This document shows, one piece after another, positions 3,167-32,768 of a stretch of 64,000 nucleotides of DNA (its first letter is position 1; every line of letters begins with the position of its first letter). A program made the position numbers and the translations under genes. Under the pieces are notes generated by a model that was not told where the DNA came from, searched no databases, and saw only the letters and a list, made by a program, of their open reading frames with translations. This DNA is from Stigmatella aurantiaca (lineage in GTDB: Bacteria; Myxococcota; Myxococcia; Myxococcales; Myxococcaceae): contig NZ_FOAP01000009.1 in the NCBI RefSeq assembly GCF_900109545.1, forward strand, positions 248,001 to 312,000, in the 5' to 3' direction.

Positions 3167-3185
3167 TGCGGTTCAGGGAGCGGGG
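3158..3185. terminator. Inverted repeat between convergent genes
   Basis: CCCCGCT at 3158-3164 and AGCGGGG at 3179-3185 form a perfect 7-bp stem whose 14-nt loop contains both stop-codon regions of the convergent genes. There is no T tract. It is a weak candidate for a bidirectional terminator; such a short GC stem could arise by chance in this base composition. Confidence 0.3.
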
Positions 3186-12031: not shown

Positions 12032-12418
12032 ATGGGAGTCCAGATCGTCACAGGGGCGTTGCTGCAATGCAGCTTTGGCGTGGCCCCCTCCGCCCTGGCG
12101 GTGCTGCCTGCCAACAAGGTGCTGTCCACGACGCCAGCGGCCAACATCATGGACAACAAGCCCATGGTGAACATCATGCCGTTCGGGATGTGCTCCTCCA
12201 TGGCCAACCCCACCGTGGCCGCGGCCACGGCGGCGGCCCTGGGCGTTCTGACGCCCATGCCCTGTGTGCCCGTGACGGCGGCTCCCTGGGTGCCTGGGTG
12301 CCCCAAGGTGCTGATTGGCAACATGCCGGCCGTGGACATGAGTTGCAAGCTGATGTGCAACTGGGGAGGGGTCATCCAGGTGCTCTCCCCCGGACAGGTC
12401 ACGGTGCAAGATGGCTGA
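12032..12418 (+). CDS. DUF4280 / PAAR-like spike-tip protein
   Basis: The 128-residue protein begins MGVQIVTGALLQCSFGVAPS and contains the DUF4280 pattern: conserved Cys (LQCSFG, MPCVP, CPKVLIGN, SCKLMCNW), ANIMDNKPMVNIMPFGMC, and a GGVIQVLSPGQ end. DUF4280 proteins are PAAR-like and are thought to cap a VgrG spike and help pierce membranes or carry effectors. The several Cys residues may bind a metal. It overlaps the next gene by 8 nt, so translation is coupled. Its place next to baseplate genes supports the tip role in this secretion system. Confidence 0.82.
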   Translation: MGVQIVTGALLQCSFGVAPSALAVLPANKVLSTTPAANIMDNKPMVNIMPFGMCSSMANPTVAAATAAALGVLTPMPCVPVTAAPWVPGCPKVLIGNMPAVDMSCKLMCNWGGVIQVLSPGQVTVQDG

Positions 12419-13430
12419 GCCCGCCAAGAAGGTGGCCGTTGCTCCCCTCGACTCCGGTCTGCTGGGCCGGACGCTGACCGAGGAGGCTCCGGACCTGGAC
12501 AGTTCGGATGAGCGGCTGGAGAAGGTCAACGGCTTCACGTCCCGGAATGATTATGCCGGGGCGGCCCGGGCCGCCGAGGCGCTGCTGCGAGAGGGCGTCT
12601 ATGACGTGAGGCTCGTGGGCGCCTACCTCCTCGGGCTGTTCCTCGAGGGTGGGCTCCAGGCGATGCCGGTGGTGTTTCACGCGCTCTCCAGCACGCTGCT
12701 GCGCAACTGGCAGTTCTTTGGCCCGCGCGAGCGCCGGGACGTGTTCGCCGACGGCAACCTGCGCTGGCTGCTCAAGCTGCTCAACAAGCACATCGAGTAC
12801 CACGAGCGCAGCAAGGACGAGACCTGGCAGCGCTGGAGCGAGCCGTCCAACCGCGAGCCCCTGGAGCAGGCGCTCGCGCTCAGCGAGGAGATCTTCGCGT
12901 CGTTCGGCCAGGCGATGCCGCGCAATGGCTGCGAGGCCCCCTTCCGCCGGCTCGCCCAGTGGATGGAGGGACACCTGATGTCCCTGCCGGCCGCGCAGCC
13001 GGAGCCCGGGGAGGAGCCCACTCCGGAGCCCGAGCTCGAGCAAGCGCCCGAGGAAGCCCAGGCCCCGAGGAAGGCGCCGCCGAGGGCCCCGGTCCGGGAC
13101 GCGGGCCCCACGGTGCCCGTCTCGCCCGCGATGGCGGAGCTGATGCGCAAGCTGGCCGCCTTCGACACGCTCGTCCAACGCCAGGACTTCCAGCGCGCCA
13201 GCGTGGTGGCCGCGGACGTGATGGCGGTGGTGGAGCGGTTTGATCCACGCGTGTACCTGCCCTCGTTGTTCTCCCGGTTCTTCGCCGGGCTGAGCGTGCA
13301 CGCCGAGCAGGTGGAGTCCCTGCTGCAGGGCACCGAGTCGCTGTCCTTCCGCGCGTTGGATCAGCTCTACCGGGTGGACCTGGAGACCTTCCTGGCCTCG
13401 GCGGAAGGAGCACACGAGGCGGAGGAGTAG
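12411..13430 (+). CDS. TssA/IglI-like T6SS protein
   Basis: The 339-residue protein has an N-terminal helical domain (residues ~25-100) resembling the ImpA/TssA N-terminal domain, with short repeat helices such as YAGAARAAEALLREGVYDVR and LVGAYLLGLFLEGGLQAMP. A Pro/Glu-rich linker follows at ~200-240. A C-terminal helical domain begins near AELMRKLAAFDTLVQRQDFQ. TssA proteins coordinate assembly of baseplate, tube and sheath; a similar two-part arrangement is known for the IglI family. The last base of its TAG stop is the first base of the next gene's GTG. It could equally be an operon-specific accessory protein; the assignment relies on both pattern and position. Confidence 0.6.
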   Translation: MAEPAKKVAVAPLDSGLLGRTLTEEAPDLDSSDERLEKVNGFTSRNDYAGAARAAEALLREGVYDVRLVGAYLLGLFLEGGLQAMPVVFHALSSTLLRNWQFFGPRERRDVFADGNLRWLLKLLNKHIEYHERSKDETWQRWSEPSNREPLEQALALSEEIFASFGQAMPRNGCEAPFRRLAQWMEGHLMSLPAAQPEPGEEPTPEPELEQAPEEAQAPRKAPPRAPVRDAGPTVPVSPAMAELMRKLAAFDTLVQRQDFQRASVVAADVMAVVERFDPRVYLPSLFSRFFAGLSVHAEQVESLLQGTESLSFRALDQLYRVDLETFLASAEGAHEAEE

Positions 13431-14299: not shown

Positions 14300-14306
14300 G
14301 GCCTAC

Positions 14307-14336
14307 TTGACCCCTCGAACGCGCGTGTTCTTAAAT
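14307..14336 (+). promoter_or_regulatory. Possible sigma-70-type promoter before tssB
   Basis: The 130-bp gap before tssB is the largest in the T6SS operon and contains an AT-rich patch unusual for this genome. TTGACC (14307-14312) and TTAAAT (14331-14336) are separated by 18 bp, a reasonable -35/-10 pair. An alternative -10 is TATAAC at 14343. It could give extra transcription of the tail-tube and sheath genes, which are needed in many copies. Motif evidence only. Confidence 0.35.
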
Positions 14337-14429
14337 ACGATTTATAACAATGCGGATCGTCATCTGTGTAGGGGTCGGATGGGCGGCGGGCTTTCCGGAG
14401 ATGTGAACCACTTGGTGTAAGGAGAACCC

Positions 14430-15041
14430 GTGCCGATTCAGGACAGTCTGCCCAAATCCCGTATTACCCTCACCTATCGCACCACCATCAGCGGCAAGGA
14501 GGAGGACGTCAAGCTTCCCTTCCGGGTTGTGGTGATGGGCGACTTCTCGAGCGGCAGTTCCACGGATCGTCAGTTGGATCTGGAAGAGCGCAAGCTGCGC
14601 TCGGTCACCGGCAGCAACATCAACGAATTGATGAAGGACATGAACATGTCCCTCGCGTTCGAGGTGGATGACAAGCTGAGCGCCGATGGCAACGGGCGGA
14701 TGAAGGTCAATCTGCCGGTCGACCGGATGAAGTCGTTTCACCCGGACGAGATCGTCCACCACGTGCCCAAGCTGAAGTCGCTGCTCATGCTGCGCCAGTT
14801 GCTCCTGGAGATGCAGTCGGACATCGACAACCGCAAGGATTTGCGCCGCAAGCTCTACGAGCTGTTCTCCAACAAGGAAGAGCTGCGCAAGCTGCTGGAG
14901 AGCGAGCAGCTCAAGAACTACGCGGGCATGCGGCTGCCTGCCACCGCCAAGGCGCAGACCCAGGCCACGCCCCCGGCGCCCGCCCAGCCCGCGCTCGCCG
15001 CAGAGACCGTTCCCGCCGTGGCTCCCGTCAAGGCCACCTGA
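14430..15041 (+). CDS. tssB: T6SS contractile sheath small subunit TssB
   Basis: The 203-residue protein matches TssB/VipA/ImpB: MPIQDSLPKSRITLTY, then LPFRVVVMGDFS, SLAFEVDD, and the helix motif SFHPDEIVHHVPKLKSLLMLRQLL at residues ~105-130. It interlocks with TssC to form the contractile sheath in the cytoplasm. The family is usually ~165-170 residues; here an Ala/Pro/Thr-rich tail of about 40 residues is added, probably disordered and possibly exposed on the sheath. The GTG start is set by a TAAGGAG ribosome site 7 nt upstream. tssC follows after 40 nt. Confidence 0.93.
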   Translation: MPIQDSLPKSRITLTYRTTISGKEEDVKLPFRVVVMGDFSSGSSTDRQLDLEERKLRSVTGSNINELMKDMNMSLAFEVDDKLSADGNGRMKVNLPVDRMKSFHPDEIVHHVPKLKSLLMLRQLLLEMQSDIDNRKDLRRKLYELFSNKEELRKLLESEQLKNYAGMRLPATAKAQTQATPPAPAQPALAAETVPAVAPVKAT

Positions 15042-15081
15042 TTTTCCCTCTCCCTTTTTCGTGCCGAGGAGCCCTTCGCTC

Positions 15082-16575
15082 ATGGCTGACAATAAGAATT
15101 ACCTGAAAGAGTTGTTCCAGATTCGCGGCCTGGAGGTGCCCCTCCAGGCGGAGCCGATGGTGGGGACCGGGCTGGTGCCCACCTCCCAGAGCGACGCGCA
15201 GATGTCGGGGGAGGCGCGCTTCATGTCCTCCCTGGCCGCGCTGCTCTACAACGTCGAGCCCGTGCAGGAGGACGGGGGCGAGGCGCGCTTCGACAAGGGC
15301 GAGGTGATGAAGGCCATCGCGCGCATCGACGGCCTCATCGAGTCCCAGGTGAACGAGATTCTCCACGCGGAGGAGTTCCAGAAGATGGAGTCCGTGTGGC
15401 GGGGGCTGGATGACCTCGTCCAGCAGACCAACTTCCAGGCGGACATCACCATCGACCTCCTGGATGTCACCAAGGACGAGCTGAGCGAGGACTTCGAGAA
15501 GAACTCCAGCAACATCTTCTCGAGCGCGCTGTTCGACAAGATGTACATCAAGGAGTACGACCAGTTCGGCGGCAAGCCCTATGGGGTGATGCTGGGTCTG
15601 TACGAGTTCAGCGCCTCGCGGCAGGACCTCACCTGGCTGGAGCGCATGGGCAAGGTGGCCAACGCCGCGCACTGCCCCTTCATCTCCGCGGTGAGCCCCA
15701 AGTTCTTCGACTGCGACAGCGTCGAGCAGCTCGAGTCGCTCAAGGACCTGGATGGCGTGCTGAGCCACCCGCGCTACAGCAAGTGGATGGAGCTGCGCGA
15801 CAAGGAAGAGGCCGCCTACATCGGGCTGACGCTGCCGCGCTACGTGGTGCGCCTGCCGTGGGATCCGGACATCAACCCCTGCGACGTGCTCAACTTCAAG
15901 GAGGACGCCGAGGGCGACTCGAAGAAGTACCTGTGGGGCAACACGGCCTACCTGCTGGGCCGCAACCTGGTGAAGGCCTTCGAGCAGTCCGGCTGGTGCC
16001 AGTCCATCCGCGGCCCCAAGGGCGGCGGGCTCGTCACGGGCCTGCCCGTGGATACCTTCACCCTGCGCGGGCAGAAGATGATCCAGGCGCCGGTGGAGAT
16101 CGCCATCCCGGACTACCGCGAGTACGAGTTCGCCCGGAACGGCTTCATCCCGCTGGTGCACCGCAAGGGCTCCAGCGAGGCGACGTTCTTCAGCACCCAG
16201 TCCATCAAGCGGGCCAAGAAGTTCAAGGACCCGAAGGACTCGGAGAACTCGCAGCTGGTCACCAACCTGGCCTACACGTTCTCCATCACCCGGCTGGCGC
16301 ACTACATCAAGAGCATCGCGCGCGATAACATCGGCAGCACCGCCGACGCGGCCTACGTGCAGCGGGAGCTCGACTCGTGGTTGGCCGGATACATCACCAC
16401 CGTGGTGAACCCGGATGACCCGACGGTCCGGCGCTTCCCTTTCAAGGCCACTCAGGTCATCGTGGAGTCCCGGCCCGGAGAGTTGGGCTGGTACGATTGC
16501 AAGGTGGCGGTGATGCCCCACGTTCAGTTCGAGGGGCTCAATGTGAAGTTGATGCTGGAGTCCCGCCTCGGGTAG
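15082..16575 (+). CDS. tssC: T6SS contractile sheath large subunit TssC
   Basis: The 497-residue protein is of standard length for TssC/VipB/ImpC and contains the hallmark EEFQKMESVWRGLDDLV segment (residues ~97-113) and ITIDLLDVTKDEL. Further on are PFISAVSP, YIGLTLPRYVVRLPWD, NTAYLLGRNLV, and the C-terminal beta strand EGLNVKLMLESRLG that completes the sheath handshake. Start chosen at ATG 15082 (MADNKNYLKELF) because the GTG at 15061 lacks conservation-like sequence and GAGGAG lies ~10 nt before the ATG. It is followed after 42 nt by the Hcp-like gene. Confidence 0.95.
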   Translation: MADNKNYLKELFQIRGLEVPLQAEPMVGTGLVPTSQSDAQMSGEARFMSSLAALLYNVEPVQEDGGEARFDKGEVMKAIARIDGLIESQVNEILHAEEFQKMESVWRGLDDLVQQTNFQADITIDLLDVTKDELSEDFEKNSSNIFSSALFDKMYIKEYDQFGGKPYGVMLGLYEFSASRQDLTWLERMGKVANAAHCPFISAVSPKFFDCDSVEQLESLKDLDGVLSHPRYSKWMELRDKEEAAYIGLTLPRYVVRLPWDPDINPCDVLNFKEDAEGDSKKYLWGNTAYLLGRNLVKAFEQSGWCQSIRGPKGGGLVTGLPVDTFTLRGQKMIQAPVEIAIPDYREYEFARNGFIPLVHRKGSSEATFFSTQSIKRAKKFKDPKDSENSQLVTNLAYTFSITRLAHYIKSIARDNIGSTADAAYVQRELDSWLAGYITTVVNPDDPTVRRFPFKATQVIVESRPGELGWYDCKVAVMPHVQFEGLNVKLMLESRLG

Positions 16576-16617
16576 GCGTCACAGCTCCCAGGCCACAACT
16601 GAAACTAGGAGGGCACA

Positions 16618-17187: not shown

Positions 17188-17211
17188 CGGCTCTCCGTCA
17201 GGAGTCCATGC

Positions 17212-18465
17212 ATGCAGCGCCACAAGCTCGCGCGGGTCCGCTGGCAAGTCGGCCAGACGCTCCTTCCCGAGCACTTCCGTGCCCAGGACGAGGCGCTCTC
17301 GTCCGAGACACGGCTGCATGCCGAGTTGTCCGGGCTGCCCCAGGTCGGCATCGCCACGTTCTCCTGGAGCGAGGCGTTGCTGGCCGAGGGCAGCCTGTCG
17401 GTCTCCGCGTTGACGGCCGTCCTGCCAGGAGGCTTCCTGGTGGACGTGCCGGGCAATGCCGCCCTGTCGCCTTTCTCGCTCGAGGCCACCGGCCGCGCGG
17501 AGGTGACCGTCTACCTGCACCTGTTGGAGGAGACGCGGGGCGCGGAGACCGTGCCGCTCTACGCGGATGAGCCGCCGGGCGTGCAGCGCTACGTGCGCCG
17601 GTTGCTGCTCTCCAGCGAGCAGTCCATCGACCGGGCCCTGGCCTCGCTGGAGCTGGTGGTCTTCTCCAAGAACCTGGAGGGGGCCTGGCGTCCCGCGGCC
17701 CGGAAGGTTCCGCCCCTGCTCCTGGTGGGGGCCAATCCCTTCCTCAACGAGCTGCTGGGGGAGCTGGATACGTTGCTGGAGAAGGCCCACGGCCAGCTGC
17801 GCACGTTGCTGCTGGACAGCTACCAGCGCGACGACCGGCTGACGAGCGCCCGCAGGACCCTGCTCGAGGTGCGCCGGCTCCAGTCCCTGCGCGCGGACAT
17901 GCGCGGCGGCATCTGCCCGCACCCCTACGTCTTCTTCGACGCCCTGCGCCAGTTCTACTTCGAGGTGTGCTGTTACCTGGAGCTGGATCCCGATGGGCCC
18001 CTGCCCGCGTACCGCCATGATGCGCTGGGGGCGGGGCTGTGGGGGTGGATGGACCTGCTCGACCGGGCCTTCCGGCCCGAGGACACGCGGCTCACCTACA
18101 AGTCCTTCGAGATGAAGGAGGGACAGTTCGTGCTGTCCCCCCTGCCCGCCCTGGAGGAGGGCGTGCAGAGCGAGCTGTACCTGCTGGTCCGCAGCGAGGA
18201 CCCCAGCCAGCGGCCCTCGATGGAGGGGGTGAAGATGGCCAGCCCCTCGCGCCTGTCCGCGGTGCGCCGGCTTGCGCTCCGGGGCATCCCCTTCGAGTAC
18301 GTGCCGCACCCGGCCTTCCCCCACGCCTTCGGGCCGGAGATCTCCTGGTACAAGCTGTCGTTGGGTGAGGAGTGGCAGCATGCCTTGCGCGACAACGGCA
18401 TGGCCTTCTTCGCCACCTCCGCGCTGCAGAGGACCCAGGTCTTTCTCTTCTGGCGCAGGGCGTGA
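17212..18465 (+). CDS. tssK: T6SS baseplate protein TssK
   Basis: The 417-residue protein begins with LARVRWQVGQTLLPEHFRAQDE, matching the TssK/VasE opening V-x-W-x-x-G-x-x-L-x-P-Q-H-F-Q. The central domain contains DSYQRDDRLTSARRTLLEVRRLQSLRADM, and the end is beta-rich with SWYKLSLGEEWQHALRDNGMAFF. TssK trimers link the baseplate to the TssJLM membrane complex. Slightly shorter than the usual ~445 residues. It follows the Hcp-like gene after 24 nt and precedes tssE by 5 nt. Confidence 0.88.
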   Translation: MQRHKLARVRWQVGQTLLPEHFRAQDEALSSETRLHAELSGLPQVGIATFSWSEALLAEGSLSVSALTAVLPGGFLVDVPGNAALSPFSLEATGRAEVTVYLHLLEETRGAETVPLYADEPPGVQRYVRRLLLSSEQSIDRALASLELVVFSKNLEGAWRPAARKVPPLLLVGANPFLNELLGELDTLLEKAHGQLRTLLLDSYQRDDRLTSARRTLLEVRRLQSLRADMRGGICPHPYVFFDALRQFYFEVCCYLELDPDGPLPAYRHDALGAGLWGWMDLLDRAFRPEDTRLTYKSFEMKEGQFVLSPLPALEEGVQSELYLLVRSEDPSQRPSMEGVKMASPSRLSAVRRLALRGIPFEYVPHPAFPHAFGPEISWYKLSLGEEWQHALRDNGMAFFATSALQRTQVFLFWRRA

Positions 18466-18470
18466 GCGCG

Positions 18471-18863
18471 ATGCCCCGGCCCTCCTTCCTCGACAAGTTC
18501 GTCAGCCCCTCGCAGCGCCCGGAACAGCGGGGCGAGCTGCACCAGGTCTGTCAGAACATCGAGGCGGTGCTCAACACCAAGGAGGGCTACGGCTACTTCG
18601 TCGAGGGCTTTGGCCTGGGGCGCTACACGGAGAAGTTCGGCACCCGGGACCTGATGAAGACGCTCACCGAGGAGATGTTGCACTCGGTGGAGCAGCATGA
18701 GCCGCGCCTGAAGGAGGCGCAGCTGGAGCTGCGGGGCCAGGACTCTGGCCTGTGGCTGCACTTCGTCTTGACTGGCTCCGTGATGGGCTCTGCCTGTACG
18801 CTCCGGATTCTCTTCCACACCATCAGCGGCCAGGTGCGCGTGGAAGCCGACGAGGACGCGTGA
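18471..18863 (+). CDS. tssE: T6SS baseplate protein TssE (gp25-like)
   Basis: The 130-residue protein starts MPRPSFLDKFVSP and shows the lysozyme-like gp25 fold pattern without lysozyme function: an N-terminal helix region, then VCQNIEAVLNTKEGYGYFVEGFGLGRY (the conserved N-L-x-x-L-L-N-T-R-x-G-x-x-x-x-x-x-x-G-L-x-x-Y pattern of the family), followed by strands near the end. TssE joins sheath and baseplate. Its TGA stop shares one base with the ATG of vgrG, giving tight coupling. Confidence 0.88.
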   Translation: MPRPSFLDKFVSPSQRPEQRGELHQVCQNIEAVLNTKEGYGYFVEGFGLGRYTEKFGTRDLMKTLTEEMLHSVEQHEPRLKEAQLELRGQDSGLWLHFVLTGSVMGSACTLRILFHTISGQVRVEADEDA

Positions 18864-20512: not shown

Positions 20513-20554
20513 GGGCCGGGGGCCAGAGGCTCCCTACCGAGAAGGCGAGGAGCC

Positions 20555-21157
20555 ATGGGCAAGCTTGTCTGCACCGTCGAACTGGACAAGGTGAAAGGCG
20601 TCACCGTAAAGGTGGACAATGGCGACGATGGCATCACGCAGACGCTGGTGATGAACGGCGAGAGCATCACCCTCACGGTGGCAGGGCGCTCGGAGACGAG
20701 CACCGTCGTCCAGAAGCAGGACAGCGTCACCATCACCTGTAAGGATTTCACCGTGGACGCCACCGGGACGCTCACCCTCAAGTCGAAGGACGCTTCGAGC
20801 TGGACCAGCCAGGCCACGCTCACGCAGGAGAGCACCCAGGACATGGCGTTCACCTCCAAGGCCAAGCTCACCCAGAGCGCCACCTCGGACATGAAGCTGT
20901 CGTCCAACGTCAATGTGGGCGTGGAGGCCGGCTCGCAGCTGGACCTCAAGGGCATGCAGACGAGCCTCACGGCCTCTGCGGGCGAGAACAAGGTGGAGGG
21001 GATGACGCTGAAGATGTCGGGCAAGACGCAGGCGGAGCTGTCCTCCGCGATGACCAAGGTGGCCGCGCAGGGCAAGCTCGGCCTGGAGTCCTCGGGGGTC
21101 GCCGAGCTCAAGGGCTCCATGACGAACGTCAGCGGCTCGGTTGTGAAGTTGGGGTAA
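20555..21157 (+). CDS. Separate beta-helical spike protein (detached VgrG needle-like)
   Basis: The 200-residue protein is made of short alternating Ser/Thr/Val/Lys-rich strands in regular tandem (SVTITCKDFTVDATGTLTLKSKDA, TLTQESTQDMAFTSKAKLTQSATSDMKLSS). This is the pattern seen in the triple beta-helix of gp5/VgrG needles. It follows the truncated-type VgrG gene with a GAGGAG ribosome site and precedes tssF by 6 nt. It probably completes the spike as a separate polypeptide, perhaps topped by the DUF4280 protein. Fold and role are inferred from pattern and place; no enzymatic motif is visible. Confidence 0.7.
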   Translation: MGKLVCTVELDKVKGVTVKVDNGDDGITQTLVMNGESITLTVAGRSETSTVVQKQDSVTITCKDFTVDATGTLTLKSKDASSWTSQATLTQESTQDMAFTSKAKLTQSATSDMKLSSNVNVGVEAGSQLDLKGMQTSLTASAGENKVEGMTLKMSGKTQAELSSAMTKVAAQGKLGLESSGVAELKGSMTNVSGSVVKLG

Positions 21158-21163
21158 GGGGCG

Positions 21164-22813: not shown

Positions 22814-23448
22814 AACTCGAGCATTGGCAGACCGTCCTTCGGACCCACCGGCAGTCGCTGGCGTTGATGGACCAGTCCTTGCCGCGCGAGCCCGCCGCGG
22901 GCGAGCCCCGCACGCAGGTGCGGGTCGGCATGCTGGGCCTGGCCATGCTCCAGAAGCAGCTGGAGGCGGAGGTGACGGGCCTGTGCAACGTGCTCGGCAG
23001 CGCCTACCGCGAGGAAGAGGTGCTGGAGGCCCGCCGCCCATTCGTCTACCTGCTCGACGAGCTGGTGCTGCGCCGGTTGTCGGAGAGCGAGTACCTCGAC
23101 TGGCCGTTCCTTCAGTACAAGCTCTTCAAGTCGGTCTCGGGGGGAGATGCCTTCTTCGAGCTGGCCGATGAGAAGCTGGCCTCGCGCGGGGCCTCGCCCC
23201 TGGTCTTCGAGATGCTCCACTTCGCGCTGACCGCCGGGTTCCAGGGCAAGTACTCGGAGAACGTGGCCCGGTTGCGTGAGTACAAGGAGCGCCTCGCGGC
23301 CCGCATTCCGAAGCCCGAGGCCGTGCCTGCCCCCCCGCCCCCCGTGGCCCAACCCCCGCTCGTCCACTCGTTCCCCGTGCGGTACTACGCGGCGTCGGGT
23401 TTCGTGGTGGTGGCCCTCCCGGTGCTACTCTGGTGGCTGTCGAGATGA
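22810..23448 (+). CDS. tssL: T6SS inner membrane protein TssL (DotU/IcmH family)
   Basis: The 212-residue protein contains the DotU core: YLLDELVLRRL, WPFLQYKLFKSVSGGDAFFELADEKL and LVFEMLHFALTAGFQGKY, then a Pro-rich linker and a single C-terminal hydrophobic helix (YYAASGFVVVALPVLLWWL) anchoring it to the inner membrane with the domain in the cytoplasm. No peptidoglycan-binding OmpA extension is present. It pairs with TssM and docks the baseplate. Its stop overlaps the ATG of the following small gene (ATGA). Confidence 0.92.
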   Translation: MKLEHWQTVLRTHRQSLALMDQSLPREPAAGEPRTQVRVGMLGLAMLQKQLEAEVTGLCNVLGSAYREEEVLEARRPFVYLLDELVLRRLSESEYLDWPFLQYKLFKSVSGGDAFFELADEKLASRGASPLVFEMLHFALTAGFQGKYSENVARLREYKERLAARIPKPEAVPAPPPPVAQPPLVHSFPVRYYAASGFVVVALPVLLWWLSR

Positions 23449-23735
23449 AGGACGAGGCACTGACGATGCGGGAGTCCCAGGATCCCCGGATGTATCTGGG
23501 ACGGCTGGAGCAGCTTATCCGTTCCGAGCTGGGCCCGCTGCAGGCCGGCGTGGAGCCCCTGCTGGGAGAGGTGCGCGCGGGGGTGGCCGCGCTCTATCCG
23601 GAAGCGGGGGCCACGCGGCTCTCGCCCAAGGAGCATCAGGCCCAGCACGCGAAGCTCCTTCAAACCCTGGATGGCCTGGAAGAGGTGCTGGAGGCACTCC
23701 AACTGGCCGCGCGAACGGGCCGGGGGAAGGGCTGA
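23445..23735 (+). CDS. Small unknown protein between tssL and tssM
   Basis: The 96-residue protein (MKDEALTMRESQDPRMYLGRL) is predicted to be mostly helical, acidic at the N-terminus and ending GRGKG. It has no signal peptide or membrane helix. The start is fixed by an ATGA overlap with the tssL stop, and tssM begins 2 nt after its stop, so it is made in step with the membrane complex. I do not recognise the family. It may be a cytoplasmic partner of TssL/TssM. Confidence 0.72.
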   Translation: MKDEALTMRESQDPRMYLGRLEQLIRSELGPLQAGVEPLLGEVRAGVAALYPEAGATRLSPKEHQAQHAKLLQTLDGLEEVLEALQLAARTGRGKG

Positions 23736-23737
23736 GC

Positions 23738-26700
23738 GTGGGAGATCCAACCAAGGCCGTGGAGCCGGGCGTGAAGGCGCTCGAGGCGGCCGCCCCGGCG
23801 GCCAGTGCGGATGCAGGGGGGCTTCAGCAGTTCTGGCTCGTGGCGGCCCCCCTCCTGAAGTGGGTGCTGGCCGCGCTGCTCCTGGCGCTCGTGGTGTTCG
23901 CCGCCGTGAAGCTCTACCAGTGGTGGCGCCGCCGCCGCGCGGCCGTGGCGGTGTCCAGCGGGCCTCCGCCCATGGCGGTCAACCGGCTGCTCCAGGTGCG
24001 CCGGGCCTTTCTCTCCGCGCTGCCCCTGGCCAACCGGGCCGCCGTGTTGGACTTGCCCACCGTGGTGGTGCTGGGCCCCGCCGGCAATGGCAAGTCGGTG
24101 CTCATCGACCTGGATGTCGACTGGAAACGCCAGGCCCGTCAGTTCCTGCCCAGCTACCAGAAGGATCCCCTGCTGCAGGTGTTCCTGGGCCCGGACTGCG
24201 TGGTGCAGGAGGTCTCCGCGCCGCTGCTGGAGGATGAGACGCTGCAGGCCCGGGGCGCCCTGCGCAAGCTGTGGGGCAAGTGTTTCAGCCGCCGCCAGCC
24301 AGGCCTGGCGGTCATCGCCCTGAAGATCGAATGGCTGGAGAAGACCCCTCCCGGGGAGCAGCGGCGCATGGCCCAGCTGCTGCGCGGCAAGCTCAACCTC
24401 ATCTCCGAGGCATGTGGCGGGCCGGTGGAGACCCGCGTCTGCCTGACGCACATGGACGAGGTGGAGGGCTTCGAGGACTTCGCCCGGCTGCTCAAGCAGC
24501 ATGGGGTGTCCCGGTCCTTCGAGATTCCCAAGCAGGGCGAGGAGTCCAAGCTGGCCTCGCTGCTGGAGGGGCAGGAGCAGTACCTGGCGCTGGGGCTCAC
24601 CTCGCTGCCGGTGGATGCGTTCGAGCGCCTGGAGCACTTCTATTCGCAAGGGGGCCGCGCGTTCGCGGCGCTGGGCCGCTTCGTCTCCTCGCTGCTGGAG
24701 GGGGACACCCTGTCGTTCAAGCCGCGCCTCACGCGCGTTTTCCTGTCCTCCCCCGTGCCCGAGGCGCGCGCCGGCGGCACGCTGTCGGTGGTGCCCGAGG
24801 AGGGCAGCACGCAGGCGCCGCGCAGCCTCTACCTGCGCACCCACCGGCGCCGCGCGGCGCTGATCGCCGCGGTGGGCTGTCTGCCGGTGCTGGCCGCGTA
24901 CGCGAACTTCTACGTGCTGCTGGGCGATGCGCAGGAGCAGGTGGCGCGCTTCGAGACCACGGTCGCGCAGATGCAGGAGCAGGGCCTGCAGGGCCGCGGT
25001 GAGGCCGTCGAGGGGCAGGTGAACGAGGCGGCCGACGCGATCAGCCGCCTGTGGAGCGCCGCGCGCTGGTGGCCCCCGCTGAACTCGAGCTTCCCCCAGG
25101 AGATGCTGGATTTGCGCCGGCGCCTGGCCGAGGGAATCCGCCTGAGCCACCTGCGGCCCGCGTTCGAGTACTGCCGCAAGTACCCGCACGACTGCCGCCC
25201 CGAGCAGGTGGTCTACCTGCTGGCCGCCCTGCACGCCTCGAACAAGACCAAGCTCGGCGAGTTCGTGAACGGCAGCATCCAGCCCCAGCACTCGCGGCGG
25301 TGGAGCAGCACGCCCTCCAGCGTCCCGGGGGCCGCGGCGAACGCGGGCTCCTCGCAGAACCGCACGTGGATCACCTCGCTGGAGCTGCGCGAGCCGCTGG
25401 TGGCCACCTACGTCCTCGCGAGCGATGAGCCCTGGGAGCGCACGCCGCCCTGCCGCCGGGGCGCCGCGCAGGTGGCCCACACCGCGGAGGAGGAGTGGCC
25501 CTGCTGGCCCTACCCGGAACGGCTGACCGTGGAGAGCCAGCTCAAGCCGTGGTTGGACCACCTGCTGTTTCTGCGGCAAGCGCTGGAGGCGGGGCCCAAG
25601 GGGCTGGCCGAGCTGGATCAACGGCGGGAGGAGCGGGAACGGCTGGAGGCCCAGCTGGCGGATCTCGATGTCTACGCCTCGCTGCCCACCGTGCTCAACC
25701 TCATCGACACCGCGGGCATCCAGTCCAACACGCGCCACTTCCAGGGCATCGAGTCCACGGTCCAGGTGCTCGACTGGCTGCGGACGAACCGGGACACGCT
25801 GGCCACGGTGCTGGACATGGAGGAGGAGGCCTACTCGGGGCTGCTGGCGGTGGAGAAGATGGGCCCGTCCGAGTTGCTCACGCGGGATGGGCTCTGGCTG
25901 ACGGGCAACAAGAAGGGGCCCTACCGCATCGAGCTGTTGCAGCAGTCCTTCGAGTTCCGTCCTCCCCAGCTGTCGCGGGAGCTCTTGCAGGCCCTGCTGG
26001 ATGTCTACGAGAAGAGCGGCCGGTTGAACATGGGCCCTCACGCGGCCATCCGCCCCGGGCAGCTCATCTTCAGCCGGACGCCGTTCGAGACCGACCTCAA
26101 GCCGCTGGTGGATGACTTCACCCAGCGGCTGAAGAACGTGCAGTTGCCGACCGACGAGTCCGCCAAGCGCGAGGAGTACGTGCAGAAGCGGGTGGACGTG
26201 TTCGCCCAGGGCTATCGCGAGGGGCTCTTCCACAGCCTTCGCAGCTACCGCTTCGTCGCGCCGCGCAAGGTCCTGTTCGACGAGCTGGCCCGGCTCACCC
26301 AGCCCTCCTCGGAGCAGGTGGACATGCTGCGGGATGTGGCCAGCCGGGCCAGCCTGGAACCGTTGGAGGGGCCGTATTACGAGCCGCTGCGCAACGCCGT
26401 GGCGCCCTTCCGGCCCATCATCCAGCTCATGTCCACCGACAAGAGTGGCTTCTATGCCGCCCTGGCCCCGTACCACGCCCTGATTGCCCAGATGCATGAC
26501 GAGCTGGACACGGGCACGAAGCGGGGCCCGGCCGCCGGGGACAAGAAGGCCGCGGAGGCTCCGGCCAAGGACAAGGAGGCCCCGGACGCCGCCCGGGAGG
26601 CGGGGAGCGACATGGGCTCCGCGGAGCTCGCGGACATGCTCACGCCGCTGGAGCGGGTCGCCCTGGCGATGCTGCTGGAGGAGGAGGGCTCCTACCTGCG

Positions 26701-27520
26701 CAAGGCCCAGGAGTGGTTGGATCAGCAGGGCATCTCGGGGGAGCTGCGGCAGCCGTTCCTGGAGCCCTTCCTGCAGGTGCAGCGCCTGGGCAAGCAGGAG
26801 CTGGAGAGCACCCTGGCACGGCAGTGGGAGGAGGCCTCCGGACGCATGCTGCGGTCCATGCTGGAGCGCTACCCCTTCAACCCCACGTCCCAGCAGGACG
26901 TGGATCCGGGCGAGCTGGAGGTGCTGCGCCGCAAGGATGGCGCCTTCTGGATCTACGTGAACCAGATGTTCTCCCGCGTGTGCGTGGAGCGCGGCACGCA
27001 GTGGTCCCTGCGGGGCCCCTTGCGCGAGAAGCTGGCGCTGCCCGAGCAGATGCTGCTCACCCTCAGCCGGCTGTCCCGGCTGTCCGCGCTGCTGTGGGAC
27101 GAGGAGGGGCGCTCCCGTCCGCTGATGCTCAAGGTGCAGCCCCAGCCCCTGCCCACGCCGCCGATTCCGGGCGTCTTCGTCACGATGTCCTCGCTCAAAT
27201 GTGGCAAGACGACGGCCTATGGCTTCAATCAGATTCCGACCTGGCAGGACTTCCCCGTGAACTGGTGGGATCAACAGGTGTCCTCCATCGTCCTGGAGCT
27301 GCGCTCGCCCTCGCGCGATGCGCCCCAGTACGTGTCCCTGCCCTGGAACCGCTCGGCCTGGAGCTGCTTCCGCCTCTTCGAGGAGGCGGCCCTCACCACG
27401 GACCAGCGCCGGCAGTGGAGCCTGGCGCTGCAGGGCAACGCGGGCAGCAAGCGGGGGCTGGAGATCAGCTTCGGGCTCAAGGGGGAGCCCTGGGTTCCCT
27501 TCCGGGAGGTGCCCCGGTGA
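23738..27520 (+). CDS. tssM: T6SS inner membrane protein TssM (IcmF family)
   Basis: The 1260-residue protein starts at a GTG after GGGGGAAGG. It has a first membrane helix at ~35-60 (LLKWVLAALLLALVVFAAVKL), a cytoplasmic GTPase-like domain with an intact Walker A GPAGNGKS, and a second membrane helix near 370-390 (AALIAAVGCLPVLAAYANFY). A long periplasmic part follows, ending in beta-rich sequence (SLALQGNAGSKRGLEISFGLKGEP). In the family it forms the trans-periplasmic channel with TssL and TssJ. Longer than the usual ~1150 residues, partly through an Ala/Lys/Glu insert at ~925-960. Its TGA overlaps the GTG of tssJ. Confidence 0.93.
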   Translation: MGDPTKAVEPGVKALEAAAPAASADAGGLQQFWLVAAPLLKWVLAALLLALVVFAAVKLYQWWRRRRAAVAVSSGPPPMAVNRLLQVRRAFLSALPLANRAAVLDLPTVVVLGPAGNGKSVLIDLDVDWKRQARQFLPSYQKDPLLQVFLGPDCVVQEVSAPLLEDETLQARGALRKLWGKCFSRRQPGLAVIALKIEWLEKTPPGEQRRMAQLLRGKLNLISEACGGPVETRVCLTHMDEVEGFEDFARLLKQHGVSRSFEIPKQGEESKLASLLEGQEQYLALGLTSLPVDAFERLEHFYSQGGRAFAALGRFVSSLLEGDTLSFKPRLTRVFLSSPVPEARAGGTLSVVPEEGSTQAPRSLYLRTHRRRAALIAAVGCLPVLAAYANFYVLLGDAQEQVARFETTVAQMQEQGLQGRGEAVEGQVNEAADAISRLWSAARWWPPLNSSFPQEMLDLRRRLAEGIRLSHLRPAFEYCRKYPHDCRPEQVVYLLAALHASNKTKLGEFVNGSIQPQHSRRWSSTPSSVPGAAANAGSSQNRTWITSLELREPLVATYVLASDEPWERTPPCRRGAAQVAHTAEEEWPCWPYPERLTVESQLKPWLDHLLFLRQALEAGPKGLAELDQRREERERLEAQLADLDVYASLPTVLNLIDTAGIQSNTRHFQGIESTVQVLDWLRTNRDTLATVLDMEEEAYSGLLAVEKMGPSELLTRDGLWLTGNKKGPYRIELLQQSFEFRPPQLSRELLQALLDVYEKSGRLNMGPHAAIRPGQLIFSRTPFETDLKPLVDDFTQRLKNVQLPTDESAKREEYVQKRVDVFAQGYREGLFHSLRSYRFVAPRKVLFDELARLTQPSSEQVDMLRDVASRASLEPLEGPYYEPLRNAVAPFRPIIQLMSTDKSGFYAALAPYHALIAQMHDELDTGTKRGPAAGDKKAAEAPAKDKEAPDAAREAGSDMGSAELADMLTPLERVALAMLLEEEGSYLRKAQEWLDQQGISGELRQPFLEPFLQVQRLGKQELESTLARQWEEASGRMLRSMLERYPFNPTSQQDVDPGELEVLRRKDGAFWIYVNQMFSRVCVERGTQWSLRGPLREKLALPEQMLLTLSRLSRLSALLWDEEGRSRPLMLKVQPQPLPTPPIPGVFVTMSSLKCGKTTAYGFNQIPTWQDFPVNWWDQQVSSIVLELRSPSRDAPQYVSLPWNRSAWSCFRLFEEAALTTDQRRQWSLALQGNAGSKRGLEISFGLKGEPWVPFREVPR

Positions 27521-27999: not shown

Positions 28000-28023
28000 C
28001 GCGAGCGCTGTCCGTTCAGGCGC
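27992..28023. terminator. Inverted repeat over two convergent stop codons
   Basis: GCGCCTGA (27992-27999) and TCAGGCGC (28016-28023) are perfect inverted copies, each containing the stop codon of tssJ or of the convergent coiled-coil gene. The 16-nt loop and absence of a T run make it a weak terminator candidate. Both proteins ending in an Ala codon plus TGA could explain the symmetry. Confidence 0.3.
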
Positions 28024-29353
28024 GCGGCGGGGCCTGGCGAAGTTCCTCCAGCGCTGTGTCCACCGAGGCGTGCACCGGCGCGAAGCGGTCCTTCACCTGG
28101 CCGCGGGCCAAGGCCACTTGCTGGCCCGTGGTTTCTCCTATCGCATCGAGCTGTCCGGTGGCGGTCTGCTCGCCGGTATCCAGGTGGGTCTGGAGCACGC
28201 CGAGTTGCGCCTTCACCTGCGCATCCAGGCTGTCCACGCGCGTGCTCACCTGGGCGGTCAGCGCCTCCACCTGGCCCGTTACCTGGGCTTGCAGCGTGGC
28301 CATCTGCTCGGTCATCCGCGCCACGAGCTGCTCCTGCTGCGCGGCGGCCTGGTCCACGGTGCTCTGCACCGTCTGCGTCACCGATTGAATCTGCTGCACG
28401 AGCTGCTGTTGCAGCGTCTGGATCTGCTGCACGGATTGCGTCTGGAGCTGCTCCACCTGGGTGAGGAGCTGGTTCTGCACCGTCGTCATCTGGCTGGCCA
28501 CCTGGCTGGTGATCGTGCCGAGCTGGGTGGAGATCTGGGAGACGGCCTGGCCGATGGCCTTCAGGGCAGGGTCGACCAGCGGCTTGGGCAGGTCCGAGGC
28601 GGGCACGGCGTCCAGCATCTGTCCGGCGCGGCTGAGCAGGGACTCCAGCGTCTCCGTCACGGTCTTGAACAGGGTCTGGAGCGGCTCCAGCTTTCCGGGC
28701 AGGGCGGTGAAGAGCGCCTGAAGCTGTGTTTCGAGCTGGGTCAGGGTGCCCATCAGGGTGTCGAGGGTGGAGGAGGCGGCCTGGACGGTTTGACGGACGG
28801 GGGCCTGGATGGAGGCCAGGGCGGTGCTGGACGCCTGGACCAGGGCATCCAGCGAGGCACCGCCCTGGGTGATGAGCGCACCCGTCTGGGTTTGCACCTG
28901 ATCCAGGAGCTGCTCCACGGCCTGGATGCTGCTGGCCTGTTGCCGCACCTGTCCGCTCAGGGTCTGCTCCAGCGTGTCGATCGTCTGAGTGAGCTGCGCG
29001 TGCTGGCCCTGGAGCGAGCCGCTCAGGTTCGCCTCCAGGGGCTCGAGGAGCTGGTGGGCGGACTGCGTGGAGGACGCCACCTGGGAGCGCAGGGGGCCGA
29101 TGCGCTCGCGCAGCGGGCGCTCCGGGGCGCCGGGAGACGTGGCCTTCCACTCGGCCTCCGCGGAGTCGAGCTTCGTGGTGAGGGCCTCGGCCTCCGCGTC
29201 GGCCGAGGGCCGCAGGGAGGAGACCTCCGTTCCGAGCTGCTCCACCTGCGCCGCCGCCGTGGACCGGAGGGATTGCAGCCGCGCTCCCGCCCCCGTGCTG
29301 AAGGACTCCAGCTCCTCCCGAAGTGCCGTCACCTTGCCGCGCAGTTGCTGCAT
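28016..29353 (-). CDS. Long coiled-coil protein downstream of second VgrG
   Basis: The 445-residue protein is almost wholly predicted coiled coil, with long runs of Gln-, Leu-, Thr- and Val-rich heptad or hendecad sequence (QIQTLQQQLVQQIQSVTQTV; EALTAQVSTRVDSLDAQVKA) and a break with Pro near residues 245-260. No signal peptide, membrane helix or enzyme motif is visible. It starts 28 nt after the stop of the second VgrG gene, so the two are probably co-expressed. It could be a spike extension, an adaptor or an effector carried on the VgrG tail. Function unknown. Confidence 0.75.
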   Translation of the reverse strand: MQQLRGKVTALREELESFSTGAGARLQSLRSTAAAQVEQLGTEVSSLRPSADAEAEALTTKLDSAEAEWKATSPGAPERPLRERIGPLRSQVASSTQSAHQLLEPLEANLSGSLQGQHAQLTQTIDTLEQTLSGQVRQQASSIQAVEQLLDQVQTQTGALITQGGASLDALVQASSTALASIQAPVRQTVQAASSTLDTLMGTLTQLETQLQALFTALPGKLEPLQTLFKTVTETLESLLSRAGQMLDAVPASDLPKPLVDPALKAIGQAVSQISTQLGTITSQVASQMTTVQNQLLTQVEQLQTQSVQQIQTLQQQLVQQIQSVTQTVQSTVDQAAAQQEQLVARMTEQMATLQAQVTGQVEALTAQVSTRVDSLDAQVKAQLGVLQTHLDTGEQTATGQLDAIGETTGQQVALARGQVKDRFAPVHASVDTALEELRQAPPRA

Positions 29354-29381: not shown

Positions 29382-31304
29382 TTACCGCAGTTTCTCGAGC
29401 GCGGCCTTGGTCTCCGCCGCCTTGCCCGACACCTGCCCGGTGCCCTGGGACAGCCGCGCGGAGGCTTGCTGGAACGCGCTCTTGGCCTCGGCCACCTTGG
29501 CGCCCACTTCCTGTTTGGCCTCGCCGAGCGCCGCCTTCGTCCCGGCCTGGGCGGTCTTCATCTTCGCACGCACGGTGCCCATGGCCCCCTGGTAGGCGGT
29601 GGCGCTCTCCGCGAGGGCCCCTCCGACCGATGCCGAGAGGTCCGCCTTGGCGGCGTCCACCTGCGGGCTGACGTCATAGGTGGGCGTGGGCGCCACGCTG
29701 CCGGGCGTCTCCTGGACCTGGATGAAGAGGTGGCCTTCGCCCATGCGCACCACCTGGGTGTCCCCGCCCGAGGTGCGGTGAATGCGCCACACCGGGTTGT
29801 CCTCTTGGAAGTCGTGCGTGAAGGCCGTCTGGCTCGTCTTGTTCCACCCCAGCAGCGTCTGGTCCCCCTGGCCGTCCTGGGGTGTGCGCACGCCCTCCTT
29901 CCAGTCGATGAAGCGCACCAGCTCGGCGTGCTCGAAGTGGAGCGCCACCAGGACGCGCGTGTTCTTGTACGGGGGGAAGAAGAAGTGGCCTGGGAGCTGG
30001 TTGGGCTCGGCGGGAACGCTCACCGTCTGGTTCCACAGCGGCACCGTCATCCGGAACGAATGGAGGGAGGTCTTCTCGTCCTCGACGATGAGGTAGCGCC
30101 GGTCCTGGACGTCGCCCCCCGGGCTGTGCACCAGCCCCTCCACGTGGATGGGGTAGCGCGGGGTGCGGTAGGCGGGCAGGGTGGTCAGCGTCTCCGAGGC
30201 GGGCTCCAGCCGGGCCGAGAGGAGGCAGTCGTAGGAGGTGGCGGGGCGGTGCTGGCCGTCATCGGCCTCGCCGCTCAGGGCGTGCGCCTCCAGCGTCAGG
30301 TGGAGCACCCGCTGGTCCTCATCGAGCCCCTTCATGCCCGAGGGCCACAGGGGCCCCTCCAGGCGCAGCAGGGCCCCGGGGAAGATGTCCACCGAGGGGA
30401 GTTGCTGGAAGGCCACATCGAGCTGGGCGTGCCGCACCTGCAAGCGCGTCTTCTCCTGCTTTTGCTGCTGCTCGGCCACGGTGGCCAGCGGCGTTCTCAG
30501 CATCACGTCGTGGGACACGCCCGCGACCGCATGGGGCTGTTCGAGCGCCACGGTGGTGGGCCCCTGGGCCACCGCGTTGAGCACCCGGACGCCGTGCCGG
30601 ATGGGCGGCGGCAGGTGCACTTTCACGTCTTGCACCTCCGCGCGGCTCAAGGGCGCTGCCTGAGCCGAGGACGCTTTGTCCGCGGTCAGCGCGTACTGGT
30701 TCTGCGCGCTGTCGTAGCTCCAGACGCCGTTGTTCGTGGCCACGTACCAGAGGACGAAGTCGTAGAAGCTCACCCCCGGGGCGTCCGCGCCCAGGGCGAG
30801 GCACAGCATGGGCTGCTTCTGCTGGAGCACGGTCCAGTCGTAGGTGAGCTGGAGGCTGGCCTTGTGCGCTTCGAGCACCTCGCGCATCGAGATGTCCGTG
30901 TACAGCTCGATGGGGCGGTGCTGGCGCCAGAGCACCTGGGCGGGGTCGGCGAACTCCAGGGTGTAGCGGCGGAAGAACTGCTCGGCGCCTTGGAGGGCTC
31001 CATGGCTCTCCGTGGTGACGCGGCGGCTGCGGACGAGCCCCTGAACCACCAGGGGCGTGGGGGATGAGGACTCCCCCGCGGACACCGACAGCTTCACCTG
31101 GAGCAGATCGGGCTTCTGCAGGGCGGTGAAGAGCGCCGAGTCCTTCTTCTGCAGGGAGGACCAGAAGGTGACCGAGGCGGTGAAGCCGTGCGTGGCCAGG
31201 TGCACCGAGAGGTGTTTCACCTGGCCGCCCGGGATGGAGAAGGACTGGCCGCCGAGGGTGAGCGTCAGCTCGATCTGGAGCCCCTCCTGGATGGCCGTTC
31301 TCAT
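29382..31304 (-). CDS. Second VgrG with LEA-like helical C-terminal extension
   Basis: Residues 1-535 parallel the plus-strand VgrG along their length: AEQFFRRYTLEFADPAQVLWRQHRPIELYT, VSFYDFVLWYVATNNGVWSYDS, LPGHFFFPPYKNTRVLVALHFEHAELVRFIDWKEGVRTPQDGQG, and GHLFIQVQETP at the point where the other VgrG ends. It then continues with about 105 residues of Ala/Lys/Glu/Gln-rich amphipathic helix (AKMKTAQAGTKAALGEAKQE), resembling LEA or apolipoprotein repeats. No needle beta-helix is present. It is probably an alternative spike whose tail binds cargo, perhaps the coiled-coil protein encoded 28 nt downstream. It lies in a minus-strand unit facing the main T6SS operon. Confidence 0.85.
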   Translation of the reverse strand: MRTAIQEGLQIELTLTLGGQSFSIPGGQVKHLSVHLATHGFTASVTFWSSLQKKDSALFTALQKPDLLQVKLSVSAGESSSPTPLVVQGLVRSRRVTTESHGALQGAEQFFRRYTLEFADPAQVLWRQHRPIELYTDISMREVLEAHKASLQLTYDWTVLQQKQPMLCLALGADAPGVSFYDFVLWYVATNNGVWSYDSAQNQYALTADKASSAQAAPLSRAEVQDVKVHLPPPIRHGVRVLNAVAQGPTTVALEQPHAVAGVSHDVMLRTPLATVAEQQQKQEKTRLQVRHAQLDVAFQQLPSVDIFPGALLRLEGPLWPSGMKGLDEDQRVLHLTLEAHALSGEADDGQHRPATSYDCLLSARLEPASETLTTLPAYRTPRYPIHVEGLVHSPGGDVQDRRYLIVEDEKTSLHSFRMTVPLWNQTVSVPAEPNQLPGHFFFPPYKNTRVLVALHFEHAELVRFIDWKEGVRTPQDGQGDQTLLGWNKTSQTAFTHDFQEDNPVWRIHRTSGGDTQVVRMGEGHLFIQVQETPGSVAPTPTYDVSPQVDAAKADLSASVGGALAESATAYQGAMGTVRAKMKTAQAGTKAALGEAKQEVGAKVAEAKSAFQQASARLSQGTGQVSGKAAETKAALEKLR

Positions 31305-31355
31305 GGCGGAGACCTCCCTCTCTGCCGGTCATCTTCAAGGATGCATGGAGGCCCG

Positions 31356-32768
31356 TCAACGCAGCGGCACGGTGAACTCAAGCTGCAGCGGCGTGCCCGC
31401 GAGCTCGGGCCGGAGGGTGGCCCTCACGTGCAGCCCGCTTTCCGCGTTCCCGAGGGGCACCACGCGCGCCTGGAGCGGACAGGGCTTCCCGGAGCCCAGC
31501 GAGAGGAACGCCTCGGCGGCCGGGGCGAACGCGGCGGCCACCGCGTCAGGGCGGGCTCCTTCAGGCAGGCTCTCGGCGAACGCCTGGCTCAGGCGCAGCA
31601 GCCGGCCGGTGAGGAGCTGGGCCGGGAGGTGCGCCGCGTCGCGGCCCCCGTACAGCGAGGGTGCCGTGGGCCCCAGCATCACCGCGTTCGAGTCCCAGCA
31701 GCCGCTCACGCCCAGCAGGCCCCGTGACGCCAGCCGCTCCTGCTCCCGGAGGGAGAGGACGGCCTGGGTGGCCACCGGGGAGCTGGTGTCTGGATGCCAC
31801 ACCGCGGGCGCCTGGCTTCCGCTGCCGGGCCCCACGAGCCGGGCGAAGGTGCGGGTGTTCCGGAAGCTGGCGGTCAGCAAGGCCGCCACGGCGAGCGCGG
31901 GGCTGGCGAAGCACTCGCGGTGCACGGCCCCCTGGCGCTCGGCCATCATCACCACGGGGTTGAGCGCCGCGTAGAGCCAGCGCGAGGATTCCTCGGCGCG
32001 CAGCGCCTCCGTCCAGGCGCCGCCCGTGGCCACGGCCGTGGGCACGGAGGCCACGATGGGGACCCAGGCCTGTTCGCCCAGCGCGGCCAGCGGCCGCAGG
32101 GCCTCCGGCCCGTCGAGCGCATCGGCGATGAAGCAGGCATCGGGGCGCTGGAGGGGCTCGACGTCCAGCCTCCGCGCCAGGGCCTCCTCCAGTTGATGCG
32201 GCGCCACGTCCAGCACCTCGATGTCCAGCTCCGGGCAGGTGGCCCCGTGCCCCCACAACCAGTGCAAGCCGCGCCAGGAGGACTCCAGCCGGGCCACGGC
32301 CGGGGACTGGAGGATGTCGCGCGCGGTGGCGAAGAGCGCCTCCTCGAGGACGGCCAGCGCGGCCCGGTGCGCGCTCTGGGAGGAGCGTGCCCCGTGAAGG
32401 GCCTGGACCATGTCCGAGGCCAGGGGGCCGGGCCCGAGCGCCGCCGCGAGCTGCGCCCGCTCCTCCGCGGACAGCACGCGCTCGCCGCGGAGGGCCTCCC
32501 GCAGCGTGCGCAAGGCGCTCAGGCCAGGAACGGCGCCGATGACCTCCGCGAGCTGGAAGTCCTCCAGGGAAGCGAAGGAGACCTCGTGGAAGAGCGCATC
32601 GCTGGAGCCGATGCGGTCCCGGACCGTGACGCTCACGGCGCGGGCGGCCCGGTGGAACGGCCCGGCCCAACCACTCTCGGTGAGTGAGAAAGCGTGCCCC
32701 GACGGCGTGGGCAGAAAGGCCCCCGCGACCAGCCAGCGCACTCGGGGTGAAGGGGGGGAACGAAGCAT
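31356..32768 (-). CDS. TssB-TssC fusion-like sheath paralogue
   Basis: The 470-residue protein reads as a TssB-like part joined to a TssC-like part. Residues ~11-95 follow the TssB pattern: a strand RWLVAGAFLP, a strand AVSVTVRD, then SFASLEDFQLAEVIGAVPGL and SALRTLREAL, the same helix motif as in tssB. Residues ~155-240 follow TssC: AVARLESSWRGLHWLW, LDIEVLDVAPHQLEEAL, LAALGEQAWVPIVASVP. The C-terminal part carries the TssC-like helix RLLRLSQAFAESL and ends in a strand, LQLEFTVPLR. The middle is shorter than in TssC. ATG start after AGGAG. It lies first in the minus-strand arm, 51 nt before the second vgrG. A modified sheath cap, initiator or regulator is possible; function is not known. Confidence 0.72.
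   Translation of the reverse strand: MLRSPPSPRVRWLVAGAFLPTPSGHAFSLTESGWAGPFHRAARAVSVTVRDRIGSSDALFHEVSFASLEDFQLAEVIGAVPGLSALRTLREALRGERVLSAEERAQLAAALGPGPLASDMVQALHGARSSQSAHRAALAVLEEALFATARDILQSPAVARLESSWRGLHWLWGHGATCPELDIEVLDVAPHQLEEALARRLDVEPLQRPDACFIADALDGPEALRPLAALGEQAWVPIVASVPTAVATGGAWTEALRAEESSRWLYAALNPVVMMAERQGAVHRECFASPALAVAALLTASFRNTRTFARLVGPGSGSQAPAVWHPDTSSPVATQAVLSLREQERLASRGLLGVSGCWDSNAVMLGPTAPSLYGGRDAAHLPAQLLTGRLLRLSQAFAESLPEGARPDAVAAAFAPAAEAFLSLGSGKPCPLQARVVPLGNAESGLHVRATLRPELAGTPLQLEFTVPLR

Follow-up and report, generated by a model that had tools for sequence, protein, structure and literature searches.

A conserved single-chain TssB-TssC sheath homologue in myxobacteria that may be a non-contracting piece of the T6SS tail

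Our analysis of a 64,000-nucleotide stretch of Stigmatella aurantiaca DNA (contig NZ_FOAP01000009.1, positions 248,001 to 312,000; hereafter the window) uncovered a protein, P0001, that by its profile matches is a collinear, near-full-length TssB-TssC in one chain. As read from its sequence, this fusion is a sheath protein by descent, and several of its features fail tests of a working sheath subunit. We hypothesize that a fused tssB-tssC sheath subunit has been converted into a non-contracting piece, a reading that we hold at a probability of roughly 0.5. A first-pass annotation made from the letters of the window had described one 470-residue frame with a TssB-like and then a TssC-like half in shortened form, and Pfam, hhalign and family-profile comparisons establish that this arrangement is real. 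The features on which our argument draws are listed in Table 1.

Table 1 Features of the fusion gene, its neighbours and the T6SS cluster in the window.
Feature	Position in window	Strand	Remarks
Single-chain TssB-TssC sheath homologue, subfamily A (P0001)	31356..32768	-	470 aa, ATG start
TssB-like half, residues 9-95	32484..32744	-	hhalign to window TssB 30-127
TssC-like half, residues 108-470	31359..32447	-	Internal deletions family-wide, including the GGKPYG segment
L340, equivalent of VipB D333	31749..31751	-	From alignment; L/I/M/V in 28/28 members
Residues 381-400, LPAQLLTGR, most conserved stretch	31569..31628	-	Aligns with the helix preceding the TssC handshake strands
Second spike-hub gene, P0002 (VgrG/PdpA-like)	29382..31304	-	51 bp downstream of the fusion
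P0003, coiled-coil / amphipathic-helix protein	28016..29353	-	Third gene of the minus-strand operon
Core TssB	14430..15041	+	PF05591 2.1e-44
Core TssC	15061..16575	+	PF05943 4.7e-116, PF18945 5.1e-34; ATG probably at 15082
IglI-family protein	12411..13430	+	NF041244 277.7 bits, cut-off 100
TssE (gp25-like sheath initiator)	18465..18863	+	TIGR03357 1.3e-8, under curated cut-off
Core spike-hub gene (VgrG/PdpA position), paralogue of P0002	18755..20512	+	

The P0001 frame has an in-frame stop ~8 codons 5' of its ATG (the open frame is 478 aa), and its codon GC (0.76/0.56/0.93) follows the pattern of genuine genes in the window. Two plus-strand ORFs (31057-31974 and 31794-32687) were considered as the real gene and rejected: the codon pattern is that of the minus strand, and 31057-31974 has no family. 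P0001 matched Pfam VipB (PF05943) at E 1.1e-10 (41.6 bits, above the cut-off of 27) and Pfam VipA (PF05591) at E 0.0019 (18.5 bits; cut-off 24). At E<=1, all 28 family members matched Pfam VipB (best 3.5e-22) and 25 of the 28 matched Pfam VipA (best 1.6e-7). Alignment of the family by hhalign to the separate sheath proteins of the window placed residues 9-95 on TssB 30-127 (probability 94.4, E 8.9e-8) and residues 108-398 on TssC 46-417 (probability 98.9, E 1.2e-17). A search of PDB with the family profile found solved TssC chains at E 8.7e-15 to 9.5e-12 and solved TssB chains at E down to 2e-6, and every match at E<=0.01 was a TssB or TssC. Among the examples listed, genuine TssC scored E 1e-11 to 2e-19 against the family profile and genuine TssB scored E 0.004 to 5e-10; the best shuffle (20 per sequence) reached E = 0.38. 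Shuffles, profile searches and collinearity thus rule out a chance motif match, and the likeness goes well beyond the short WRGL motif to which the annotation had allowed that it might be confined. P0001 falls below the equivalog cut-offs of TIGR03355 (32 versus 271.5 bits) and TIGR03358 (13.1 versus 97.25 bits), and a PHROGs search returned no family for it at E<=1.

For the C-terminal part, we aligned the fusion family jointly with nine diverse TssC (from plasmids of Pseudomonas, Campylobacter, Pantoea, Leisingera, Sinorhizobium and Azospirillum, plus three from myxobacteria). This alignment reaches the C-terminus, where RPELAGTPLQLEFTVPL falls on RPHFKYMGAAFTLSLVGKL. The C-terminal part of P0001 fits a gp25-like handshake domain (PF18945) both in the multiple alignment and in its predicted H-H-E-E-E order, with predicted strands 432-440, 443-452 and 461-468 corresponding to the handshake strands; the domain did not match Pfam VipB_2 (PF18945), nor did it give an hhalign match when used alone. 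The conserved stretch ahead of these strands reads LPAQLLTGR..R across the family. An AlphaFold model made with three fusion rows (those of the window, of Hyalangium versicolor, L003, and of Archangium violaceum, L004) had a mean pLDDT of 51.7 and no significant Foldseek match. With TssC and TssB segments from the window added as rows, mean pLDDT was 56.6 and the top three Foldseek matches among 350,542 chains were TssC (E 0.029-0.11; none at E<=0.001), including TssC of M. xanthus (E 0.029, probability 1.00) and V. cholerae VipB. Because the alignment behind this second model contained TssC rows, its match is supportive rather than independent.

We surveyed 145 genomes of the order, 45 of which matched the family; the match in one of them (G028) was an ordinary TssC, leaving 44 fusion-bearing genomes that all fall in one family, which we take to be Myxococcaceae in GTDB terms. 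In a profile search of 195 genomes of the phylum, matches outside Myxococcaceae resembled ordinary TssC/TssB, and no fusion was found among plasmids and viral contigs. Two subfamilies were distinguished: subfamily A (~470 aa), found in 15 genomes when a contig-end fragment in G121 is counted, and subfamily B (~555 aa), found in 34 genomes with a few genes split across contigs; five genomes carry both. Sixteen genomes have a TssC with at least 80% identity to that of the window: 15 of them carry subfamily A, which is absent from the 129 others, and the sixteenth is a draft of 410 contigs from which the second hub is likewise absent. Every one of the 34 genomes hosting subfamily B carries a canonical T6SS. 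Fisher values for these associations (1.7e-19 for A, 3.4e-18 for B) ignore phylogeny and describe the pattern only.

The two subfamilies share internal TssC deletions, which argues for a single origin. In the canonical cluster of one locus (L002), tssB (850-1359) adjoins tssC (1381-2868), an adjacency from which a fusion is easily made. By sequence, canonical TssB/TssC are closer relatives of the fusion family than the window's own pair is, and subfamily A thus seems to have been recruited to the window-type T6SS. Our searches of open-access papers turned up no account of a TssB-TssC fusion occurring in nature. It is very improbable that the fusion is a decaying, functionless relic of such an event. 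Its divergence is faster than that of the hub gene (75% versus 85% amino-acid identity) and one member, the subfamily A gene of G075 (L044, 9429-10822), is disrupted near its C-terminus by a frame change at ~residues 400-410, as a relic might be; however, the other members contained in one contig have a single open frame, ~70 columns are invariant across 28 proteins of the family, dN/dS values of 0.19-0.47 indicate purifying selection, and the gene is kept in 44 genomes.

What the fusion has lost points away from contraction. Its TssB-like half begins at TssB strand 2 (RVRWLVAGAF), i.e., the N-terminal arm (TssB 1-29) is missing, as it is throughout the fusion family. Ahead of strand 2 there are 5-10 residues in subfamily A and ~10-15 in subfamily B, compared with ~28-30 in canonical TssB, and the open frame upstream leaves scant space for an arm. 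In the P. aeruginosa sheath, the donor strands are TssB strand 1 and TssC strand 13 (PMC5807055). At the column equivalent to VipB D333, an acidic residue (D or E) stands in 32 of the 33 canonical TssC that made up our first set (the remaining one misfit the search pattern) and in all nine TssC of the diverse set. We placed D333 by a chain offset (5mxn/5ojq chain number + 16) on the assumption that 3j9g covers VipB 61-492; with this offset, K223 falls on a K and D333 on a D. The K223 equivalent is K or R in 32 of 33 myxobacterial TssC, but it was dropped as a key argument because several other TssC have A or S there. In V. cholerae, VipB D333A and a lengthened VipA linker each act dominantly, giving sheaths that assemble but fail to contract (PMC5797969).

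Set beside the T6SS sheath proteins TssB/TssC (VipA/VipB; PF05591, PF05943, PF18945), the fusion keeps both halves collinear in operon order, aligned handshake strands and the WRGL region, but it is one chain instead of two, lacks the TssB arm, carries L/I/M/V in place of the D333-equivalent acid, has lost internal TssC segments and, in subfamily A, has no ClpV-type helix. The V. cholerae VipA-N3 and VipB-D333A mutants are likewise altered in the VipA arm and the D333 acid; those mutants, however, are engineered, have separate chains and (in the case of VipA-N3) a longer arm, whereas the fusion is natural, conserved and armless. The annotation's suggestion of a sheath-end or control piece gains strength from the missing TssB arm and from the replacement of the contraction-critical acid.

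The same losses could also suit a protein that co-assembles randomly with TssB/TssC, at no fixed position, and lowers or stops firing. Such a blocker or tuner would act much as the dominant non-contractile VipA/VipB variants do in V. cholerae (PMC5797969), and the location of the B genes away from T6SS clusters would be compatible with a regulator. We nevertheless consider this account unlikely: the subfamily A gene precedes a spike-hub gene by 51 bp and goes with a single T6SS type, a pattern that better suits a structural partner, and the extensive losses from the TssC half may stop insertion among normal subunits.

A further difference between the subfamilies concerns ClpV, whose site is LLDEIM at the TssC N-terminus (PMC5924787). 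Subfamily B retains LVETLLSRA at the place of the ClpV helix, together with the next segment, and subfamily A has neither. ClpV was not above cut-off in genomes with a window-type T6SS only (G079, G078, G045 and G048); it was present in G077, G043, G103 and G118, all of which have a canonical T6SS. The sole ClpV of the source genome is in its canonical cluster, on a different contig from the window. That the ClpV-type helix is missing where the T6SS itself is ClpV-free hints independently at a role for the fusion in the sheath cycle.

The T6SS of the window (12411-27520, plus strand) is, by its gene content, Francisella-like, a label that we base on the IglI-family protein as a marker, on a hub that matches no VgrG model and on the lack of a ClpV gene; when each was checked, the IglI protein was present and ClpV was absent from the cluster. 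Its plus-strand genes encode TssG, TssB, TssC, TssK, TssE, the hub, TssF, TssL and TssM, and the minus-strand operon runs in the order fusion, second hub, coiled coil. The protein at the Hcp position is encoded at 16618-17187. Related Francisella-like clusters occur in most Myxococcaceae genomes that have a T6SS, sometimes as the sole T6SS type, and ClpV was likewise not above cut-off in two genomes whose sole T6SS is Francisella-like (G057 and G111).

The annotation was right to place the fusion beside a second spike hub: P0002 is a divergent paralogue of the core hub (39%). Neither hub matched a VgrG model (for P0002, those of Pfam, NCBIfam and PHROGs), and the best solved relative of the P0002 profile, Francisella PdpA, was non-significant at E 0.17. 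The place of VgrG is shared in Francisella by PdpA and a small VgrG protein (PMC5924787). Between the hub and TssF genes of the window, 20555-21157 (plus strand) encodes a 200-aa protein with strand-like repeats and no convincing family match; it is a candidate for a separate small tip of the spike, like that of Francisella.

Several other genes in the window deserve mention. P0002 has a ~100-residue amphipathic C-terminal tail, P0003 has many helical repeats with apolipoprotein-like matches, and the P0002-P0003 pair is conserved in related clusters. An OmpA-domain protein is encoded upstream of the T6SS (3173-4651, minus strand); relatives with 34-36% identity adjoin the second hub in Myxococcus-type loci (L109 5292-6638, L110 5237-6568 and L112 16720-15383), so the OmpA protein may belong to the window T6SS. 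Heading the cluster is a 559-aa protein (10311-11990, plus strand) with weak AMP-binding-enzyme matches over ~90 residues and an N-terminus, ETGAPVGPG, that resembles the TssA start. The gene at 4694-10306 (plus strand) encodes a probable lipoprotein of 1870 aa with many HYDIN/ASH-type Ig-like repeats.

The annotation had proposed that co-conservation of the fusion with the minus-strand vgrG be checked, and the correspondence runs in one direction. The fusion accompanies this hub gene only in the clade with the closest T6SS (15 of 16 genomes), and the subfamily A gene adjoins the hub gene in most A loci, lying ~6-8 kb from it in four Archangium/Hyalangium genomes. The second hub itself, however, is found in ~49 genomes, on the strand opposite the core T6SS. 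Relatives with TssC ~70% identical keep the second hub and the coiled coil and have no fusion, which refutes an invariable pairing of hub and fusion. Since many relatives have the same hub and T6SS type without it, the fusion is not essential to such systems. Most subfamily B genes lie away from T6SS genes, and two B fusions are divergent from and adjoin a canonical VgrG (L045 9333-13425 and L048 6450-10528; TIGR03361, >600 bits).

Neighbourhoods of this kind, with a hub gene beside the fusion in most A loci and VgrG genes beside two in B, might indicate a spike-loading adaptor, i.e., a sheath fold put to a new use, which would bind P0002 with its cargo ahead of assembly and stay outside the mature sheath; the missing arm and internal sheath segments would be compatible with such a function. 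This is quite unlikely in our judgement, given that the hub and coiled-coil pair persists without the fusion in the relatives just described, that a hub is lacking near most B genes, and that the best conserved stretch of the fusion is the segment preceding the TssC handshake strands.

The annotation had also raised the idea of a new small contractile particle. Phages and R-pyocins have, as a rule, sheaths made of one type of chain. So do eCIS (PMC8894135), and the fusion resembles the sheaths of phage T4 (gp18), R-pyocins and eCIS (PVC/AFP, AlgoCIS Alg2) in being one chain. Those sheaths, however, keep both arms and contract, and the fusion derives by sequence from TssB-TssC rather than from gp18-type proteins. 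We found no genes for a second tube, TssE, TssF/G or cap alongside the fusion, nor a second tube/baseplate set; the B genes are solitary, and the arm and D333-equivalent acid are lost. We thus set the proposal aside as extremely improbable.

These considerations return us to a non-contracting sheath subunit. We propose that an adjacent tssB-tssC pair fused to give a single-chain sheath subunit, which then turned non-contracting. The fusion would still bind tube and sheath via its C-terminal domain, and a small number of such static subunits may be built into the tail; several sheath paralogues within one particle have a precedent in PVC/AFP (PMC8894135). That the fusion is a static subunit incorporated into the sheath we regard as an even bet, and its placement specifically next to the baseplate is a more tentative proposal. 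A ring at the baseplate end would be the most likely position, with other positions remaining candidates. This end is favoured because one of two downward-reaching arms is lost and the arm-accepting domain is kept, as in TssE/gp25, and because in subfamily A the fusion is encoded together with a spike hub. In the operon of the window, the fusion may couple the sheath to the alternative hub encoded just downstream, so that the first sheath ring would be fixed to a particular hub and the fusion itself would stay unstretched. As it could not be pulled into contraction, it would serve as a fixed collar or adaptor rather than as part of the spring.

By analogy with TssE/gp25, the fusion would offer a handshake domain without an N-terminal arm, but TssE is ~130 aa and separately encoded in the cluster, whereas the fusion retains most of the TssB-TssC body. 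With TssA/TagA it shares a possible role at a sheath end, but its sequence is unrelated and it has no ImpA-type domain. Stopping sheath growth is the job of gp3/gp15 in phage T4 and of TagA in some T6SSs. A static subunit without one arm could conceivably do the same as a distal cap, i.e., a last ring that halts growth, and classical T6SS clusters have no tape measures or tail terminators (PMC6450956). We find this decidedly unlikely, because the fusion retains its predicted C-terminal acceptor strands, on which a further ring could still be built, and because no link to TssA/TagA-type proteins was seen.

T6SS sheaths are thought of as uniform two-chain polymers, and the field has yet to settle what defines their ends, what sets their length and how one spike is selected over another. 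It is possible, though at less than an even chance, that the tssB-tssC fusion gave rise to a dedicated class of static rings in myxobacterial T6SS tails, selected to be non-contracting and existing in two versions for ClpV-recycled and ClpV-free systems, which would set the start of contraction or the spike that is mounted. A natural and conserved variant without features that laboratory mutants showed contraction to require would be a ready tool and test case for how these bacteria define the sheath end, fire the sheath and choose the spike.
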